Below are positions 4,566 through 24,869 of a DNA stretch of 64,000 nt, one piece after another (positions within the stretch are counted from its first letter, which is position 1; every line of letters starts with the position of its first letter). Where the stretch lies: IMG/VR virus record IMGVR_UViG_3300036781_000119, positions 1 to 64,000 of that record. One strand, given 5' to 3'. Both the position numbers and the translations under genes were made by a program. Under the pieces are notes generated by a model that had not been told where the DNA came from, did no database searches, and saw nothing but the letters and a program-made list of their open reading frames with translations. Origin of the DNA: a virus.

Positions 4566-5438
4566 ATGCACATGACCCGCAGCTTCGGCAAGACCATCGC
4601 AGACGGCCGCAACGTCCTCACGGATGAGCAGATCAGCCGCTTCGCTCCCAGCGTGTTCGCCACCCAGGCCCACGAGAGCCGCAGCGCCCGCTTCGCCTAC
4701 ATCCCCACCACCCAGGTGCTGGCCGCCATGCGCGCCGAGGGCTTCCAGCCGATGAAGGTGGCCCAGGGCCGCAGCCGCATCGAGGGCAAGGCGGAATACA
4801 CCAAGCACATGATCCGCTTCCGCCACGCCTCGCAGAACCACGGCTCGCTGAAGCTGGGCCAGACCTTCCCGGAGGTGGTGCTGATCAACAGCCACGACGG
4901 CACCAGCGCCTACAAGCTGATGAGCGGCCTGTTCCGGCTGGTTTGCCTGAACGGCATGGTGGTGCGCGAGGGCATCGGCAGCGACTTCCGGGTGCCGCAC
5001 GTCGGCGATGTGGTCGGCAAGGTCATCGAGGGCAGCTACAAGGTGATTGACGAAAGCACCCGCAGCCTGGAGGCCGCCGAAGCCTGGGCCGACATCCGCC
5101 TGGGCCGCGACGAGCAGATGTTCTTCGCCGAGGCGGCCCACACCATCCGGTTCGCGGATGCCGAGGGCAACGTCGAGACGGCGATCAAGCCGGCCCAGCT
5201 GCTTGGCCAGCGCCGGGCGGCGGATGCCAGCAATGACCTTTGGACCACCTTCAACCGGGTGCAGGAGAACGCCGTGAAGGGCGGGCTGACCGCCATGGGC
5301 CGCGACGCGAACAACCGCCTGCGCCGCACCACCACCCGCGAGGTCAAGAACATCGACGGCGACGTGAAGCTGAACCGGGCGCTTTGGGTGCTGGCCGAGC
5401 GCATGGCGAGCCTGAAGGGCGTGGCAGCCGCCGCCTGA
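4566..5438 (+). CDS. DUF932 family protein, 290 aa
   Basis: Matches the DUF932 family (YfjQ/YafZ-like) along its length: an N-terminal ALTDEQI-type opening (VLTDEQISRFAPSVFA), SxRFAYIPT, a KHMIRFRH core, PEVVLINSHDGTSAYKLM, LFRLVCLNGMVV and a C-terminal helical part with a basic segment. This central N-S-H-D-G and R-x-V-C-x-N-G signature is typical. The family is found on phages, plasmids and P4-like elements and its biochemical role is not established. AGGAAC at 4553-4558 supports the first ATG; a second ATG is two codons later. It is a single-gene unit between promoter B and a UUCG hairpin, suggesting strong expression. Confidence 0.9.
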   Translation: MHMTRSFGKTIADGRNVLTDEQISRFAPSVFATQAHESRSARFAYIPTTQVLAAMRAEGFQPMKVAQGRSRIEGKAEYTKHMIRFRHASQNHGSLKLGQTFPEVVLINSHDGTSAYKLMSGLFRLVCLNGMVVREGIGSDFRVPHVGDVVGKVIEGSYKVIDESTRSLEAAEAWADIRLGRDEQMFFAEAAHTIRFADAEGNVETAIKPAQLLGQRRAADASNDLWTTFNRVQENAVKGGLTAMGRDANNRLRRTTTREVKNIDGDVKLNRALWVLAERMASLKGVAAAA

Positions 5439-8578: not shown

Positions 8579-9814
8579 TCAGGCTGCCGCCGCTGCCTCA
8601 CGGGTGGCGGCGGTTTCGCTGAAGGTGGCGCCCGTCGCCGCAAGAGTCGCCTGCTTTCCGGTGAACCGTTCCCACCGGCGCACAGTCGTGTCGCAGTAGG
8701 CGGTGGTGAGCTCCACCCCGTGGCATACGCGCCCCGTCATTTCCGCCGCTATGATCGTGCTGCCGCTGCCGCAGAATGGATCCGCGATGGTGCGCGCCAT
8801 GTCCGTCACTTCAATGATCGACGTGAGCAGTTCCACCGGCTTTTCAGTCGCATGCAGGATGTTTCCCGTGCGCTTGCATGTGATCACGTTGCCCTGCGCC
8901 TTTTTCGGGTTGAAGGGCGACTTCACCCGCACCCCGCACATGATGAGCTCGTGCTGCATCCGCCATCCTGCCCCCATGCCCGGCGTGCCCTTGTCCCATA
9001 CGATCATGTTGCGGACACCGAACCCGCTGCTTTCGACCACATCGAACAGGTTGATCCACATGCGCCAATCGGTGAAGGCATAGACCACGCCGGCGTTGAA
9101 ATTCGGCAGAACCGCGCGCATGAGCGCCATATATCCGCGCGTGGATAGGGTGTCGTTGGCAATCATAGCGGTGCCGCGCGTGCCTACGCTGCCGGCTGAC
9201 TTGCCCGCCTCCTGAAAGCCGCCCGAGCAATAGGGCGGATCTGTCAGGATCATGTCCACCGTGGCGCCGTTTTCTGCGCTGATGCTATCGCCGCAGACGA
9301 GTCGATGCTTGTCCATTTGCCAGACATCGCCCCGCCGCGTGATGACCGTGGGCAGCGGCTCGGGAACCTCGTCAGGCCCAGCCCGGCCTGTCGTCTTGTC
9401 GAGGAACCCGGATAGCTCGATATCGCTGAAGCCGGTCAGACTGAGGTCGAAGCCCTCCAGCTTCAGGTCGCCGAGCTCCAGCTTCAGCAGATCCGTATCC
9501 CAGCCAGATTGCAGCGCCAGCGCGTTGTCGGCGAGGGTGTAGGCGCGGCGCTGGGCGGGGCTCAGGTGGGCGAGCTCGATCACCGGCACTTCGCCCAGGC
9601 CCATCGACAGGGCGGCTTGCACGCGGGCGTGCCCGGCCAGGATCACGCCATCGCTGCCGATCAGCACGGGGACGGTGAAACCGAACTCGCGGATGGACCG
9701 CACCACCGCTTCGATCTGCGCGGCGGAATGCGTGCGGGCGTTGCGCGGGTTCGGCTTCAGGTCGCCCGGCGCCATCGGGCGATAGGGCGGCAGGGCGACG
9801 GGTTTCTTGGTCAT
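8579..9814 (-). CDS. ParB-like nuclease domain fused to DNA methyltransferase, 411 aa
   Basis: Residues 11-110 are a ParB/Spo0J-like domain (LKPNPRNARTHS ... GHARVQAAL ... TLADNALAL). Residues of about 160-395 are an S-adenosylmethionine-dependent amino-methyltransferase with motif IV DPPY at 192-195 before the AdoMet motif DPFCGSG at 345-351 and HATEKP at 321-326, the beta-class order used by N6-adenine or N4-cytosine enzymes. ParB-methylase fusions are common in phages, where the methylase protects phage DNA from host restriction. The ATG at 9814 is chosen over the upstream 9841 codon because ACGGAG lies 6 nt before it. It stands alone on the minus strand within a plus-strand region, as expected for a moron. 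The target site cannot be predicted. Confidence 0.92.
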   Translation of the reverse strand: MTKKPVALPPYRPMAPGDLKPNPRNARTHSAAQIEAVVRSIREFGFTVPVLIGSDGVILAGHARVQAALSMGLGEVPVIELAHLSPAQRRAYTLADNALALQSGWDTDLLKLELGDLKLEGFDLSLTGFSDIELSGFLDKTTGRAGPDEVPEPLPTVITRRGDVWQMDKHRLVCGDSISAENGATVDMILTDPPYCSGGFQEAGKSAGSVGTRGTAMIANDTLSTRGYMALMRAVLPNFNAGVVYAFTDWRMWINLFDVVESSGFGVRNMIVWDKGTPGMGAGWRMQHELIMCGVRVKSPFNPKKAQGNVITCKRTGNILHATEKPVELLTSIIEVTDMARTIADPFCGSGSTIIAAEMTGRVCHGVELTTAYCDTTVRRWERFTGKQATLAATGATFSETAATREAAAAA

Positions 9815-9873
9815 GTCGGGCTCCGTGGGTGATCGCGGCATGATGCAGCACCGGAGCGCGCGATAAAATATTT

Positions 9874-14309: not shown

Positions 14310-14575
14310 CCGGCCCGGTGGAATGGGTTCCGCCCCGGCGGATCACCCACCCGGCGCTGGCGGTGCCATGCGGCCACTGCGGCGCCTACATCGGCAAGGC
14401 GTGCACCGACAGCTATTCGACCGGCAAGCCGGCCGAGCCCCACGCGATCCGCCACATGATCGCCGAGGCGCACGGGTTCAGGTGGGCAAAGGGGGTCGGC
14501 AGTAGCGACCCCCTTCCCGCGCCACGGCCGCCGGATCAGGACTTGCCGCTGTTCGCTGAGATCTCGGCGACCTGA
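14306..14575 (+). CDS. zinc-ribbon protein of the C-x2-C...PHxxR type, 89 aa
   Basis: Residues 20-55 read VPCGHCGAYIGKACTDS and then PAEPHAIRHMIAEA, the layout of a small zinc-binding domain widespread in phage and actinobacterial proteins (C-P-x-C-x-A-x-x-G-x-x-C ... P-H-x-x-R). A C-terminal Pro-rich tail follows. It is the last gene of the 9972 operon and its 3' end overlaps a convergent minus-strand gene by 40 bp, so transcripts run into each other without a spacer. Confidence 0.75.
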   Translation: MTGPVEWVPPRRITHPALAVPCGHCGAYIGKACTDSYSTGKPAEPHAIRHMIAEAHGFRWAKGVGSSDPLPAPRPPDQDLPLFAEISAT

Positions 14576-14772
14576 TCCGGCGTAACGCGCACGCCGCGCA
14601 TGCTCGACCCCCGCGCCGCCCGCGCGTGGCGCCGGATGGCGCGGGCCATGCGATGCCACGTCCACCCCGCCATCGCCGCAGCGTCCGCACAGCGCACCGG
14701 CTGCCACGGCATCGCCAGCTGACGCGCATGCTCGGCCCCCGCGCTGGTGATGGAGCGGAGGGTCAGGGTCAT
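14536..14772 (-). CDS. hypothetical basic protein, 78 aa
   Basis: ATG at 14772 overlaps the stop of the TGT-like gene (ATGA). It is Arg/Ala-rich with WTWHRMARAIRRHARAARGS in the middle and ends DQVAEISANSGKS. Possibly nucleic-acid binding. The last gene of the minus-strand DNA-metabolism operon; it overlaps the convergent zinc-ribbon gene by 40 bp. Confidence 0.65.
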   Translation of the reverse strand: MTLTLRSITSAGAEHARQLAMPWQPVRCADAAAMAGWTWHRMARAIRRHARAARGSSMRGVRVTPDQVAEISANSGKS

Positions 14773-15506
14773 TCCGGGAGACCGAACAGGACGTCCTGCA
14801 CCGGCATGGTGGCAATGCGCTTGCCGAACCGCGCCGCCTCTCGCCAGTCGTTCCCGTTTCTGCCTTGCTTTCTGGCGCTATACGACCATGCCATCGAATC
14901 CGCGGTATGCAGCAGATCCCGCACGAGGCCGGAACCCAACGCGGTGGTCTTTATGCCGAACCCATGCAACCGCAGATCAGGCCGCGCGCCCTTGATGGCC
15001 AGCAGCACATCCTCGATCGCTGCTTTGTCGCCATTGCGCTTGCAGACACTGCCGACTCCTACCCATGCCCCCCGATCTAAACGAGGGCCGTACGCTTCGA
15101 TGTGGCGGACGTAATCGGATGGGGCGTATCCTTGCAACACGGGCATGATGTAGATGCCTCCAGAGTCGCAATTCAGAAGGTCGTCGTAACGCTCGATCGT
15201 CAAGCGCTGGTGCTCTTCTATCGACAAGCCAGTCTTCGCCAGCATTATCGCCTCGCGCATGTAGTCCTGCGCCACCGCAGCGAGCAGTTTTCCGTTGGTG
15301 GCCCATCGCTTGATTTGCTCGGCATAGACAGCAACCGGATGGCGATACTGGCCGAACAGTAGCAACTCCATGAATGCGCCGCTGTCCATGATCCATTCGT
15401 CTACGACAAAGGGACCGACGCGGTTGCGAACCCGGTTGACGGAAATGAATGCAGGCGACACATGCTTGGCATCGGATGGTTGATGTAGGCCATAGAAGAA
15501 CCGCAT
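14769..15506 (-). CDS. TGT/DpdA-like (7-deazaguanine transglycosylase-related) protein, 245 aa
   Basis: The TIM-barrel pattern of the queuine tRNA-ribosyltransferase superfamily is visible: MDSGAF at 40-45, QDYM at 80-83, PVLQGYAPSDYVRHI at 122-136, WVGVGSVCKRN at 148-158, RLHGFGIKT at 179-187 and ADSMAWSYSARKQGR at 202-216. The last aligns with the nucleophile segment (D-x-F/M-D-C-V-x-P-T-R) of TGT. The four-ligand zinc site of bacterial TGT is absent. Phage DpdA proteins of this type insert preQ0 derivatives into DNA to escape restriction; that is established for the family, not for this gene. No FolE, QueC, QueD or QueE gene is seen in the window. Coupled to its neighbours by TGATG and ATGA overlaps in the nuclease/replication operon. 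Confidence 0.75.
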   Translation of the reverse strand: MRFFYGLHQPSDAKHVSPAFISVNRVRNRVGPFVVDEWIMDSGAFMELLLFGQYRHPVAVYAEQIKRWATNGKLLAAVAQDYMREAIMLAKTGLSIEEHQRLTIERYDDLLNCDSGGIYIMPVLQGYAPSDYVRHIEAYGPRLDRGAWVGVGSVCKRNGDKAAIEDVLLAIKGARPDLRLHGFGIKTTALGSGLVRDLLHTADSMAWSYSARKQGRNGNDWREAARFGKRIATMPVQDVLFGLPE

Positions 15507-15835
15507 CAGCCGGACACCAGCGACAGATGGCGCGGCCGCCGGCGCTGGATGTCGAATATATCCCGGCTGGCGAGGTAGGCGCCCAGCGACCGCCGGTCCA
15601 TCTGGTATTCGCGCGCCTGCATATACACCAGCACGTTGATGTCGCCGTGCAGCGTCATGCAGGCGAAGTGGCCTTCAGGGTCATAGCCGGTGCGCTGCCA
15701 ATGCACGCGCAGCCGGGCAACCTCTGCCCGGTATTTGCCCAGGGCCAGCCCGTCCGCCTGGGCCTTCTCCGTCTGCACGCCATCGGGATCATCCAGGGTG
15801 GCGGCCAGCCGGCGCGATGCGAGCTTGAGCCTCAT
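15506..15835 (-). CDS. hypothetical protein, 109 aa
   Basis: The stop overlaps the TGT-like start (TGATG) and the start overlaps the HNH gene (ATGA). The sequence is mixed alpha/beta with YDPEGHFACMTLHGDINVLV and ends in a very basic tail (DIQRRRPRHLSLVSG). No family is recognised. Its place between an HNH nuclease and the TGT-like protein suggests a DNA-related accessory role, as inference only. Confidence 0.7.
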   Translation of the reverse strand: MRLKLASRRLAATLDDPDGVQTEKAQADGLALGKYRAEVARLRVHWQRTGYDPEGHFACMTLHGDINVLVYMQAREYQMDRRSLGAYLASRDIFDIQRRRPRHLSLVSG

Positions 15836-16182
15836 GGCATCGCCCCCGCCCGGCTTTCAGCGCGCAGCCGGGCCGCCAGCACCAGCGGCACGATGCCATG
15901 CATCGGCCAGAATTTCCGCTCGCCGATAGCTTCCACGCCCGTGTCGCCTTGGTGGTGCTCATGGCACAGCGGCACCGTCTCGTCGTCGCCGCTGCGCCGG
16001 CCTGCTGCGGCGCTGGAGCCCAGGCAGCGCAGGTGATGCACCGTCGCCCGCCGGCCGCATCCGGGCACACAGCAGGGCAGGCTGGCGACGTAGGCGAGGT
16101 GCCCGGGATCTGTCACCCGACGCTGGCGACGCTCGCGCGGGCGGCTGCGCAGCTTGCTGATCGGCAGCGTGTCCGCCTTCAT
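15832..16182 (-). CDS. HNH nuclease of the DUF968/Ref-like type, 116 aa
   Basis: HNH features: CCVPGC at 37-42, HH at 49-50, an acidic DD at 66-67 and PLCHEHH at 71-77, followed by a G-x-E-x-x-G element. The order C-x4-C, HH, D-D-x-x-x-x-P-L-C-x-x-H-H is that of the small HNH proteins related to DUF968 and to the RecA-dependent nuclease Ref of phage P1. The N terminus is strongly basic (SRPRERRQRRV). It probably nicks or cuts recombination intermediates. Position in the recombination/replication operon agrees. Confidence 0.85.
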   Translation of the reverse strand: MKADTLPISKLRSRPRERRQRRVTDPGHLAYVASLPCCVPGCGRRATVHHLRCLGSSAAAGRRSGDDETVPLCHEHHQGDTGVEAIGERKFWPMHGIVPLVLAARLRAESRAGAMP

Positions 16183-16678: not shown

Positions 16679-17379
16679 CAGCCGAACAGCCCGTGGCGCT
16701 TCGCCGCCTGCACGATCGGGTTCGCCTCGCGCGCCGCCAGCACATCAGGCGACGCCTGGGGCGCTGGGGCATCAGGTGGCGGCAGGGCGGCCAGCTGGGC
16801 AGCCACCGGGGCCGACGCCGGCACGTAGGGCATGGCGGCTTGGCTGGCCACCGTGCGCGCCAGCCGCGCCGTCGCTGCGATGCGCTCCCGGTCGTATTCG
16901 GTGGGCTCGCGCCGCGTCGGCTCGGTGTTGCCGGTGATGACGCGCCATGCCGGAAGCGACTCGCGCCTGATCAGCCCCAGCAGGTGCGCGCGGGCGTTGT
17001 CGGGGTGAATATGCTGCGGCGGCGGGTAGAAGTTTTCCGCCTGCCGGTTGTGGAAATAGTTGCACCAGTGCAGGTCCATCCCGGTCAGCCCGTGCGCACC
17101 GCCGCCGCCGACCGCCCGCGTCGCGCGCCGGGTTTGCTGGAAATCCCACCACGCCCGCGCGCGCTGTTCGATCGAATCGAAGCCCGGGAAGAAATCTCCC
17201 TTTGCGCACTCGCGCGCCGACGCGGCGGTGAAGGCACCCGATGGCAAAACCTCAGCCAACGCCTCCGCCATCTGGAGCAGCTTGGCCTTGGTCGGATCCT
17301 GCCCGGCCGGGTGGACGCACAGGTCGGCCAGCCCCTTCAGCCACGTCGCAATTTCGGCAATCAGCTTTCGGTCAGCCAT
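16678..17379 (-). CDS. hypothetical protein downstream of replication initiator, 233 aa
   Basis: ATG at 17379 (MADRKLI) overlaps the upstream gene by 8 bp; the codon at 17391 would be TTG and is less likely. The N-terminal half is helical (IAEIATWLKGLADLCVHP), the middle contains DLHWCNYFHNRQAENFYPPP and the C terminus is Ala/Pro-rich. No recognised domain. Phage genes in this position, right after an O-like initiator, often encode helicase loaders, but no Walker motif is present here. Confidence 0.7.
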   Translation of the reverse strand: MADRKLIAEIATWLKGLADLCVHPAGQDPTKAKLLQMAEALAEVLPSGAFTAASARECAKGDFFPGFDSIEQRARAWWDFQQTRRATRAVGGGGAHGLTGMDLHWCNYFHNRQAENFYPPPQHIHPDNARAHLLGLIRRESLPAWRVITGNTEPTRREPTEYDRERIAATARLARTVASQAAMPYVPASAPVAAQLAALPPPDAPAPQASPDVLAAREANPIVQAAKRHGLFG

Positions 17380-18199
17380 GGTCGGTTCCAATCATGCGTT
17401 GCTGTTCGCGGTAGGCGTCTAGCTCGCCAAGGGTCAGGGTGCGCTCCGCATCCGACACGTCGGCGAGGTGTTTGCCCTTGGCCAGCCACTTCGCCGGCTC
17501 GGGGATGAATTGCGGGCGGTCGAGTTCGAATGGGTAATTCAGCACCGCATCAAGGATGCGATCGGGGGGCGTGATCTTGATCGCCTTGGCGTAAGCCTTC
17601 ATGGCTTCCTGCTTGCCATCCCGCACCATGCGACCGCTCGACAGCCGTTTGGGGAACGCTTGCCAGAATTCTTCGAACGCGACCGCTTTGCCGTTGACGA
17701 GGATGGGGGGCTTGGAAGCCTGTGCAGCGATCTGATCCCCGAACAGCCCCCACGTCGCCGGCTTCGGCGACACTGCCGGCGGCGGCGGATTTGTCGGCGG
17801 GAGTTTAATTTCGGGTTCTATGATGGGTTCACTGGTAGGTTCGGGCGCAGGATACGCACCCTTTTGCGCACTGTCCTGCACCCTTTCTGGCGCTACGTGC
17901 ACCGTTTCCCGCTTGACGTGCACCGTTTCCGGCGGCGCCTCAGTGCCGACCTGAAGGCGATACATGCGCGTCAGACGCCTTCCTCCAACGCCCTCAGATA
18001 CGACCAAGCCGGCGCGCTCCAAGGCGCGCAGGCTGCCCTGCGCGCTTCTCTCCGACACGCCTGCATCATGGGCTATGGTGCCCACAGCGGGCCAGCATTT
18101 GTCGTCATCGTCGGCGCGGATAGCGAGTGCCAGAAGAACTGCCTTCGTGGGGCCGGACAGCGCGCAAGACAGAGCCCACATGCGAGCGCCATGGCTCAT
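17372..18199 (-). CDS. replication initiator-like protein with winged helix, 275 aa
   Basis: ATG at 18199 overlaps the upstream stop (ATGA) with GGAAAG 8 nt before it. Residues 1-85 are an HTH_36-type winged helix: ARMWALSCALSGPTKAVLLA, then CWPAVGTIAHDAGVSERSA, a recognition helix and wing. A long Pro-rich linker separates it from a C-terminal domain (FEEFWQAFPKRLSSGRM ... KAYAKAIKI). This resembles phage O-like replication proteins, in which the C-terminal W-x-x-F-P-(K/R) segment precedes contacts with the helicase loader. The linker DNA may contain the origin, as in lambda, but no iterons are obvious. Confidence 0.75.
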   Translation of the reverse strand: MSHGARMWALSCALSGPTKAVLLALAIRADDDDKCWPAVGTIAHDAGVSERSAQGSLRALERAGLVVSEGVGGRRLTRMYRLQVGTEAPPETVHVKRETVHVAPERVQDSAQKGAYPAPEPTSEPIIEPEIKLPPTNPPPPAVSPKPATWGLFGDQIAAQASKPPILVNGKAVAFEEFWQAFPKRLSSGRMVRDGKQEAMKAYAKAIKITPPDRILDAVLNYPFELDRPQFIPEPAKWLAKGKHLADVSDAERTLTLGELDAYREQQRMIGTDHG

Positions 18200-18771
18200 G
18201 TCGGCGCTTTCCATTGGACCATGTTCGTGGCCTGCGCCCACAGCTCCATGGTGTGCGCCGCATAGGGCTTCGGCCCCCTATCGCGCCCCCATGAACTGGC
18301 ATCGCCACCAGCTGCGATCCATCCGTCCGGCTGTAGGTCGATCACGTCCGCCTTGAAACGCGGGACCACGTTGCCCGAAAGCCAGCCTAGGAACGCACGG
18401 CTCGGCTGAATCCCCCCATACTGCGTCCACCATCCAAGCTGACAGCCGCTTCGGGCGCGTCGATCGGGTGCCACGCCAAACAGCATAAGGCCGCGCACGG
18501 CGGGGTCCTCGCCTTCGAACATGCCGTTGGCGGCGCAGGTGTTGTGCATTTTCCGGAACACGTCGCGCGGGAATTCCTGCGCTGGCTTGATTTCGACCAG
18601 TGCGCCAAAATCCGGCAGCAGGAAGTCAGGCGACCACCCGCCGAGGTCGAACGGCTCGTATTCGTGCCGCCACTCCAGGAGGTCGAAGAATGCGGCCCAG
18701 CGCGCCTCAAGCCGGCTGCGATACCGGCGCCCGCGATACGTCGTCGGGATCGCCGCGATGGTATATTCCAT
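18196..18771 (-). CDS. PD-(D/E)XK nuclease, 191 aa
   Basis: Signature residues: E22 in YRSRLEARWA, D49 in WSPDFLLP, and E60-I-K62 in ALVEIKP, the E-D-ExK active site of the PD-(D/E)XK superfamily. The opening TTYRGRRYRSRLEARWAAFF is typical of a group of phage endonuclease-like proteins. The remaining 130 residues have a G-W-W-T-Q-Y-G element. The ATG at 18771 overlaps the tiny upstream gene's stop (TGATG). Role in DNA processing is inferred from fold and operon. Confidence 0.85.
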   Translation of the reverse strand: MEYTIAAIPTTYRGRRYRSRLEARWAAFFDLLEWRHEYEPFDLGGWSPDFLLPDFGALVEIKPAQEFPRDVFRKMHNTCAANGMFEGEDPAVRGLMLFGVAPDRRARSGCQLGWWTQYGGIQPSRAFLGWLSGNVVPRFKADVIDLQPDGWIAAGGDASSWGRDRGPKPYAAHTMELWAQATNMVQWKAPT

Positions 18772-22973: not shown

Positions 22974-24869
22974 ATGGCCGATCGCACCGAAAGCCTTGCG
23001 AGCAAAGAAAACCGCAGCCGCGAAGGGCTGGTTGCCCTGCTTGCCGCCGTCGAAGCCCGGCGGACGCAATTCCTGGATTTGCTGCCCAGCGAAATCCCGT
23101 TTGAGGTGTTCAAGGACACGTTCAAGCTGGCGATCCAGCAGAACAACCGGCTAATGGACGCCGACCGGGACAGCCTGTTCATCGCCTTGCAGAAGGCCGC
23201 GATTGACGGGCTGCGGCCGGATGGGCGCGAGGGTGCGCTGGTGATCTTCGGCGACGACCAGGAGGATGACGAGGGCAACGTCGTCAAGAGCACGGCGGGG
23301 AAGCCCAAGCGGGTGCAGTGGATGCCCATGATCGCCGGCCTGATCAAGCAGGTGCGGAACACGGGCGAGGTGACCAACGTGCGCGCGGCGGTGATCTATG
23401 AGGGCGAGACCTTCAGCATGTCCGACGAGGATGGCCAGCTGGCCTACAAGCATGAGCGCCGTATGGCGCGGGATTTCGATGATACCGACGAGAAGATTGT
23501 CGGCGCCTATGCCGTGATCCAGTTCAAGGACGGCAGCTGGGATATGGAGCCGATGTCGCGCCGTCAGATTGACCGGGTGCGCGCGGTGTCCAAGGCGAAG
23601 AAAGGCCCGTGGCTGCCGTGGTATAGCGAAATGGCCAAGAAAACCGTCCTGCGCCGGCTGCTGAAGCGGCAGCAGCACGAGGCCGCCAATCGCGCGCTGG
23701 CGTCGATCGACCGCGACGAGTCCATGATCATCGAAGGCGACCTGGACGAAGCGCGGCCGGTGACCGAGCCCGCGCGCCTGCCCACGCCCACCCCCCAGGT
23801 GGACATCGGGCTGAACCGCCAACCTGCGCAGAATGCGGGCGTCGCCGAGGATCCGGCCGATGCTTCGCTGGGCACGAAGGCGCGCACCGTGAGCGACCCG
23901 GTAGCCGGTAGCGGCGGCGGTGGCGTTTCGGCAGGCGGTGGCACGCCCAGCGGCGGATCGGCGACCGGCCGGACCACGGCCAACACGACGGCCGCCAGCG
24001 GCGCGGGCGGGGCTGGCACTGCCACCACAACCAAGGCGCCCGACAAGCGGGTGGAGCCCGCGAAGGAAACGCCCAAGCCCGAGCCCACCCCTGCCGCACC
24101 GGAGCCCTTTGAACACTGGGCGATGGATCAGTCCGGCCAGCCGATTGACGACCATCAGGGCGAACCGCTCGACAGCCCTGAAGCCTTCGCCGCGTGGTTC
24201 GAACTGGCCGCCGGCGTGTGCACCGATATTGACGCGCTGGTGCAGCACAATGCCGACGCGCTGGGCGATGTCGGGGCCGACCCTGCCATGGCCGCCCGCA
24301 TCCAGGTGGCCGTGAACACCGCCCGCGCGCGGCTGACCGCCAAGCCTGCCGAGGAAGCCAAGGCCGCCGAGCCGGCCGCGCAGGCCGCCCGGCCATTGCC
24401 GCACCCCATGCCGATGACGCCGGGAAACAAGCCGCATTATCCGAACTATCTGGCCGAGATTAAGCCGATCATCGACGCCATGGCCACCTTGGACGATCTG
24501 AACGCATGGTGGGAAATCAACCGGCCGGTCAGCGCGGCATCGGCCGCCACCGCCAAGAGGGTGATGGGCTTCCTGTCGGCGCGCCGGGACGCCATAGATG
24601 CGGGCGCGCAGGCCGCCGATCCCGAGCCCGATACTGGCAAGGATGCCGATCTTGTGTGGGCCTTGGCCGCCTGCCGTGACATCGACGGCCAGCGCACCCT
24701 CTATGACCTGCAATCCTGGGGCAACAATGCCGCCATCCGGGCCAAGATGGCGCGCCTGCTGACGGAGCGGCCTGACCTGCACACGATGGTCAACGAAGCC
24801 AGCGCGGCGAAGATGAAATTATTCGGTTCCACCGCGACCAAGGCGGAGACGGACGGTAGCGCGCCGTGA
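22974..24869 (+). CDS. recT: RecT-family single-strand annealing protein with long C-terminal extension, 631 aa
   Basis: Residues 1-265 match RecT: LPSEIPFEVFKDTFKLAIQQ, ADRDSLFIALQKAAIDGLRP, DGREGALVIF, VQWMPMIAGLIKQVRNTG, AVIQFKDGSWDMEPMSRRQI and the C-terminal KKGPWLPWYSEMAKKTVLRR. RecT anneals complementary single strands in phage recombination. Typical family members are about 260-330 aa. Here a Gly/Thr/Pro-rich linker (about 270-385) is followed by some 245 more residues, with GEPLDSPEAFAAWFELAAGV, LDDLNAWWEINRP and a final acidic helical part that I do not recognise. AAGGAAAGACC precedes the ATG. Confidence 0.9.
   Translation: MADRTESLASKENRSREGLVALLAAVEARRTQFLDLLPSEIPFEVFKDTFKLAIQQNNRLMDADRDSLFIALQKAAIDGLRPDGREGALVIFGDDQEDDEGNVVKSTAGKPKRVQWMPMIAGLIKQVRNTGEVTNVRAAVIYEGETFSMSDEDGQLAYKHERRMARDFDDTDEKIVGAYAVIQFKDGSWDMEPMSRRQIDRVRAVSKAKKGPWLPWYSEMAKKTVLRRLLKRQQHEAANRALASIDRDESMIIEGDLDEARPVTEPARLPTPTPQVDIGLNRQPAQNAGVAEDPADASLGTKARTVSDPVAGSGGGGVSAGGGTPSGGSATGRTTANTTAASGAGGAGTATTTKAPDKRVEPAKETPKPEPTPAAPEPFEHWAMDQSGQPIDDHQGEPLDSPEAFAAWFELAAGVCTDIDALVQHNADALGDVGADPAMAARIQVAVNTARARLTAKPAEEAKAAEPAAQAARPLPHPMPMTPGNKPHYPNYLAEIKPIIDAMATLDDLNAWWEINRPVSAASAATAKRVMGFLSARRDAIDAGAQAADPEPDTGKDADLVWALAACRDIDGQRTLYDLQSWGNNAAIRAKMARLLTERPDLHTMVNEASAAKMKLFGSTATKAETDGSAP

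Follow-up and report, generated by a model that had tools for sequence, protein, structure and literature searches.

A small DpdA-family gene in a tailed phage and the repeated pairing of its relatives with a YhhQ-type transporter

The dpdA-like gene and its neighborhood

The stretch of DNA analyzed here (the window) comprises 64,000 bases of a 71,314-base record from a tailed phage with a G+C content of 67%; the remaining 7.3 kb of the record encode a terminase, a portal fusion and a further head gene. In the window, a small gene of the DpdA family, an intact ORF of 245 aa read from 15506 to 14769, sits in an early block together with replication genes, and its start and stop codons overlap those of both immediate neighbors:

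14769..15506, minus strand: dpdA-like gene (PF23859 / phrog_1279), coding for a TGT-type (beta/alpha) barrel without the zinc subdomain
15506..15835, minus strand: upstream gene of 109 aa with no assigned function, whose stop overlaps the dpdA start (TGATG)
15832..16182, minus strand: gene for an HNH / DUF968-like nuclease (weak matches), in the same operon
14536..14772, minus strand: small downstream ORF of 78 aa with no Pfam match, whose ATG overlaps the dpdA stop (ATGA)
17372..18241, minus strand: replication initiation protein (phrog_270, 5e-24), in the same leftward early gene block

As conserved partners, the genes of this operon are almost absent from the vicinity of other dpdA genes; the 109-aa upstream gene, which has no Pfam match, has no relatives there at all. 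We found no tRNA gene in the window.

The family assignment is drawn from profile matches: the 245-aa protein matches the Pfam model PF23859 ‘DpdA’ with E 1.3e-43 and 149.5 bits, against a cut-off of 27 bits, and phrog_1279 with E 1.3e-65 and 222 bits. The initial annotation had proposed a DpdA-like enzyme from a series of motifs, all five of which we recovered (MDSGAF at residues 40-45, VLQGY at 123-127, VGVGSVCKRN at 149-158, LHGFG at 180-184 and ADSMAW at 202-207), and that identity is upheld by Pfam, by structure comparison and by conservation. The TGT family PF01702 has no match in the record, with the same search returning a positive result in 14/14 control genomes.

In the phage collection, 399 records match, 390 of which are mycobacteriophages with about 40-44% identity; Sinorhizobium, Rhizobium and Microcystis phages also match, with 57% identity. 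A first scan of IMG/VR gave 34 loci, and relatives were gathered from IMG/VR and bacterial genomes, using the patterns DYMCE and LHGFG in the scans, to yield a set of 185 loci with a located dpdA (138 non-redundant). The bacterial carriers include Paraburkholderia, Sphingomonas, Rhizobiales, Verrucomicrobia, Cyanobacteria and many Actinomycetota. The dpdA tree divides into an actinobacterial half and a mainly proteobacterial half, the window gene lying in the latter. Among 34 pairs of close relatives the median dN/dS is 0.07 (NG86), which amounts to strong purifying selection; the ORF is a real, conserved gene.

The phage itself is less easily placed. No close phage was found by DNA, and in the host search its major head protein reached at most 49% in the sampled Burkholderiales, 50% in IMG/VR and 44% in the class, as sampled, to which the Sphingomonas genome belongs. 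A motif search placed methyltransferases within 3 kb of dpdA in 14/138 loci, too few, and with no control, to speak of an enrichment.

Predicted fold and active site

An AlphaFold2 model of the window protein, built with 60 homologues (pLDDT 93.4), is predicted to adopt the transglycosylase barrel that the initial annotation had traced. The best solved match to the model is 7ui4, the crystal structure of a bacterial DpdA (‘DNA preQ0 insertase DpdA’), with Z 19.1 over 229 residues at 17% identity; the archaeosine TGT 1iq8 has an equal Z of 19.1 and bacterial TGTs about Z 18. The structure comparison with DpdA and TGT thus matched both, with 7ui4 on top. 7ui4 differs in being a 413-residue chain with no detectable sequence match, and more generally neither single-sequence nor profile searches gave a meaningful direct match to solved structures, fold comparison being the only link to them. 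The zinc ligands of TGT are absent, as had been anticipated: the protein contains two cysteines and its chain ends shortly past the barrel.

Profile-profile comparison links the protein to a DpdA tested by experiment. With hhalign it aligns to an alignment containing this CAjan DpdA with E 2.9e-6 and a probability of 88%, pairing DSGAF, LHGFG with LHAFG, and ADSMAW with CDSSSW; against TGT only the DSG motif is found (DSGGF in TGT), with E 0.07. The residues of the putative pocket, and one position near it, map as follows:

15384..15386, minus strand: codon of D41, in MDSGAF; D in 183/185 homologues, with 2 gaps
15264..15266, minus strand: codon of D81, in QDYM; D in 184/185, with 1 gap
15255..15257, minus strand: codon CGC of R84; Cys in 181/185 relatives and Thr in 3/185
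15132..15134, minus strand: codon of Q125, in VLQGY; Q in 184/185
14964..14966, minus strand: codon of H181, in LHGFG; H in 185/185, aligned to LHAFG of CAjan
14898..14900, minus strand: codon of D203, in ADSMAW; D in 182/185, aligned to CDSSSW of CAjan

D41, whose motif pairs with both DSGGF of TGT and DSGAF of the CAjan DpdA, is equated by us with D102 of the Z. mobilis TGT, the first of its catalytic Asp residues, and D203 presumably corresponds to the TGT nucleophile D280. This Asp pair, whose absence from a model was part of what the initial annotation had named as counting against its reading, is present and nearly invariant; the three exceptions at D203 (L031, L039 and L076) come from loci that contain an insertion or whose reading seems to be interrupted. 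By position, D81 is probably the base-recognition Asp equivalent to D156 of TGT, Q125 probably the base-recognition Gln equivalent to Q203, and H181 probably the conserved His described for the 9g-type DpdA. The columns of DYMCE and LHGFG were partly selected for, because the scans used those patterns. All five pocket residues (D41, D81, Q125, H181, D203) are retained in the window protein. By analogy with TGT, the N-glycosidic bond of guanine would be broken with D203 as the nucleophile and D41 as the acid/base, and the incoming base would be held by D81, Q125 and the backbone of G150-G152.

The one departure from the family pattern is R84: Arg at this position is seen only in the window phage. 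It may be a change near the pocket, and it stands as a caveat for the activity of the window copy. We consider it very unlikely, however, that the copy has become inactive or altered by this substitution, conspicuous as it is where relatives carry Cys or, rarely, Thr: the ORF is intact, all other pocket residues are kept, close pairs of relatives are under purifying selection, and the single-base difference at the codon could stem from an error in the metagenome or from variation within the population.

The fold also bears on the nucleic acid that might be modified. As the predicted barrel fits DpdA and tRNA-guanine transglycosylases about equally well (Z 18-19), the base exchange might take place on RNA (host or phage tRNA), in line with the alternative of another nucleic acid raised in the initial annotation; it would then alter translation, or the host's queuosine state, instead of marking DNA. 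In TGT, the zinc subdomain is used for binding tRNA and for dimerization. The protein shares with TGT (PF01702) the barrel fold and the DSG motif, but has no PF01702 match, no zinc subdomain and no Cys3-His zinc site; moreover, its profile is closer to the phage DpdA than to TGT, and the window is devoid of tRNA genes. On these and the host data given below, we regard action on RNA as unlikely.

Known DpdA systems and the missing base synthesis

The initial annotation had noted that no genes for preQ0 synthesis accompany the gene, and this holds for the window as well as for the remaining 7.3 kb of the record. HMM searches detected no QueC, QueD or FolE in the whole 71,314-bp record, which is possibly a fragment, and tblastn with the CAjan QueE, the only search made for this enzyme, found no QueE in it; nor does the record contain a TGT or a VUT/YhhQ-type transporter (PF02592). 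One of the sources that had been envisaged for the base, synthesis genes lying outside the window, is thus not borne out by the 7.3 kb beyond it, for a record that may be a fragment. Similarly, no full-length QueC was found in 46 related virus records, where QueC gave two matches that were weak and partial, and QueD a single weak one. Since the phage-encoded FolE, QueD, QueE and QueC of the 7-deazaguanine groups 1 and 2 are missing from the record, the window phage falls in the DpdA-only group 3; and, as it has no transporter, dependence on the base pool of its host would follow.

This third group was delineated by Hutinet 2019 as 76 phages in which DpdA stands alone; the authors were unable to predict the modification state of these phages and considered that the singleton DpdAs might have diverged in function (PMC6884629). 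Two members of the group were assayed: the DNA of Salmonella phage 7-11 contains traces of dADG, and that of Mycobacterium phage Orion, whose host is without a preQ0 pathway, contains none of five tested 7-deazaguanines (PMC6884629). Orion is a Pegunavirus, and PF23859 is present in this genus, for instance in Vista; the Orion result counts against DNA modification by the family, although its host makes no preQ0. By profile or tblastn, the DpdA-only singletons of the mycobacteriophages Hammy and Vista and of Sinorhizobium phage phiLM21 belong to the same PF23859 / phrog_1279 family as the window gene and, like it, have no preQ0 synthesis genes alongside. The window protein is 57% identical to that of phiLM21 and about 40-44% to the mycobacteriophage copies, from which it differs in lying on the mainly proteobacterial side of the tree, apart from the actinobacterial branch, and in having R84; phiLM21, in turn, has an adjacent VUT transporter, whereas the window phage has none. 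We see in the window gene a sound, if ordinary, representative of the DpdA-only class.

The CAjan/9g-type DpdAs, for which dPreQ0 or dG+ in DNA has been established by experiment (PMC6884629), are distant homologues of the window protein over the core with its DSGAF, LHxFG and DS..W motifs. The CAjan DpdA (L041:28848-29765, minus strand) is unmatched by PF23859 at E 1 and is about 306 aa long, compared with 245 aa for the window protein; CAjan also carries FolE, QueD, QueE, QueC and a transporter, none of which was detected in the window record. The PF23859 model itself fits the mycobacteriophage singleton branch, and the Pfam name ‘DpdA’ hence calls for caution, as DNA modification by the branch behind the name is an extrapolation.

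The negative result for Orion (PMC6884629) would also be accounted for if the enzyme used some other guanine-like base than preQ0, one missed by the 2019 assays, which were limited to known 7-deazaguanines. Such a base would also fit the persistence of the gene in many actinobacterial hosts that lack both QueC and TGT. However, the guanine-recognition pattern of D81, Q125 and the glycine loop is conserved, and the family is repeatedly paired with a transporter family for queuosine precursors; we therefore consider another base to be quite unlikely.

Association with a YhhQ-type transporter and the hosts

A plasmid hit in which dpdA adjoins a VUT gene annotated for queuosine salvage was the starting point for a survey of this pairing. 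By profile search, a VUT/YhhQ gene (PF02592) directly adjoins dpdA on the same strand in 21/185 loci (17/138 non-redundant loci), with a gap of 8-83 nt in those loci whose ORF ends are well defined. It lies upstream of dpdA in 14 loci, from Actinomycetota, Dehalococcoidia and Rhodobacteraceae, and downstream in 7, mainly from proteobacterial phages and prophages. Within the 21 loci VUT is found nowhere else than beside dpdA, and across 49 whole virus records PF02592 occurs five times, each time adjacent to dpdA; Pfam confirmed PF02592 above the cut-off for 3/3 of the adjacent genes checked. Mapped on the dpdA tree, the transporter label undergoes 11 changes, at least 6 of them forced by well-supported branches; the pair has therefore formed or been lost repeatedly. 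The turnover seems to be quick, as the dpdA genes of loci L150 and L151 are 92% identical and an adjacent VUT was detected in L151 only.

In E. coli, YhhQ (QPTR) imports preQ0 and preQ1 (PMC11130926), and YhhQ had been recorded in some phages with no correlation to any phage group (Hutinet 2019, PMC6884629). DpdA-only phages were already known; what is new here is the repeated direct pairing of PF23859 dpdA with a YhhQ-type transporter. This pairing supports base exchange with a salvaged 7-deazaguanine, and an importer next to dpdA helps to explain how many relatives do without base synthesis. The window phage does not have this import-and-insert pair. Neither the window nor six loci that have the transporter next to dpdA yielded a preQ1 riboswitch.

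Comparable arrangements occur outside PF23859: in Pseudanabaena phage Pam5, Arthrobacter phage Aoka and Mycobacterium phage StevieRay, a VUT gene lies beside or one gene away from an annotated transglycosylase/DpdA-like gene, and in the Rhizobium phages N3_2 and X2_30 it is next to or close to proteins bearing motifs of the same type. In these phages of four bacterial genera (loci L192, L193, L194, L195 and L196), VUT thus lies next to or near DpdA-like proteins that are likewise short.

For the supply of the base, we sampled 48 host genomes carrying the gene, 25 non-actinobacterial and 23 actinobacterial. The former have TGT in 25/25 and full-length QueC in 18/25; the latter have a full TGT in 1/23 and a full QueC in 9/23. 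The proposal that the base is made or salvaged by the host is thereby supported indirectly, through the transporter pairing in relatives and the pathway genes of the non-actinobacterial hosts. A dozen or so of the actinobacterial hosts lack both TGT and full-length QueC, mostly without an adjacent transporter, and with no visible source of the base they count against a preQ0-exchange model. Three actinobacterial genomes have a single PF02592 match, which by its coordinates adjoins dpdA: those of Prauserella endophytica (L096), Amycolatopsis marina (L103) and A. saalfeldensis (L111). All three hosts are without TGT, and Prauserella also without full QueC, so that the imported base would have no other detected known user than the DpdA-like enzyme. 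VUT transporters also serve tRNA queuosine, as an RNA target would have it, but the occurrence of the family in hosts without any TGT argues against such a target. Across the sample, an adjacent transporter is weakly linked to the lack of TGT (6/22 vs 1/26; Fisher p 0.04), a relation confounded by phylogeny. Host QueC failed as a simple predictor of an adjacent transporter, with full QueC in 4/7 such hosts and no clear relation.

Taken with the pocket and the profile match to CAjan, these observations make it reasonably likely that the gene encodes a small DpdA-family enzyme that inserts a host-derived 7-deazaguanine into DNA as protection. The base, most likely preQ0, would be taken from the queuosine pathway of the host rather than made by the phage, and would be put into DNA in place of guanine, the modified DNA then being shielded from host nucleases; some relatives would add their own YhhQ-type importer beside dpdA. 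We infer preQ0 as the substrate, DNA as the target and protection as the benefit. Tentatively, PF23859 as a whole might constitute a salvage-only DNA modification system, which makes no base, uses whatever 7-deazaguanine is available, has its own importer in several lineages and works even in Prauserella-like hosts without TGT or full QueC. The YhhQ-type pairing ties the family to salvaged queuosine precursors and renders the question of its function testable; should the proposed scheme hold, many temperate phages would have a modification state that depends on what the host or its neighbors produce, with effects on restriction and host range.

Elsewhere in the same phage we observed a protein joining a ParB-like N-terminus to an N6/N4 DNA methylase (window 8579-9841, minus strand; PF01555, 3e-17), a DUF932 protein (4566-5438, plus strand), a RecT-family annealing protein whose C-terminal part is long and of low complexity (22974-24869, plus strand) and, beyond the window, the above-mentioned portal fusion, in which an ADP-ribosyltransferase domain forms the C-terminal part (record 65759-69379; PF06381, 2e-82, and PF03496, 7e-14).
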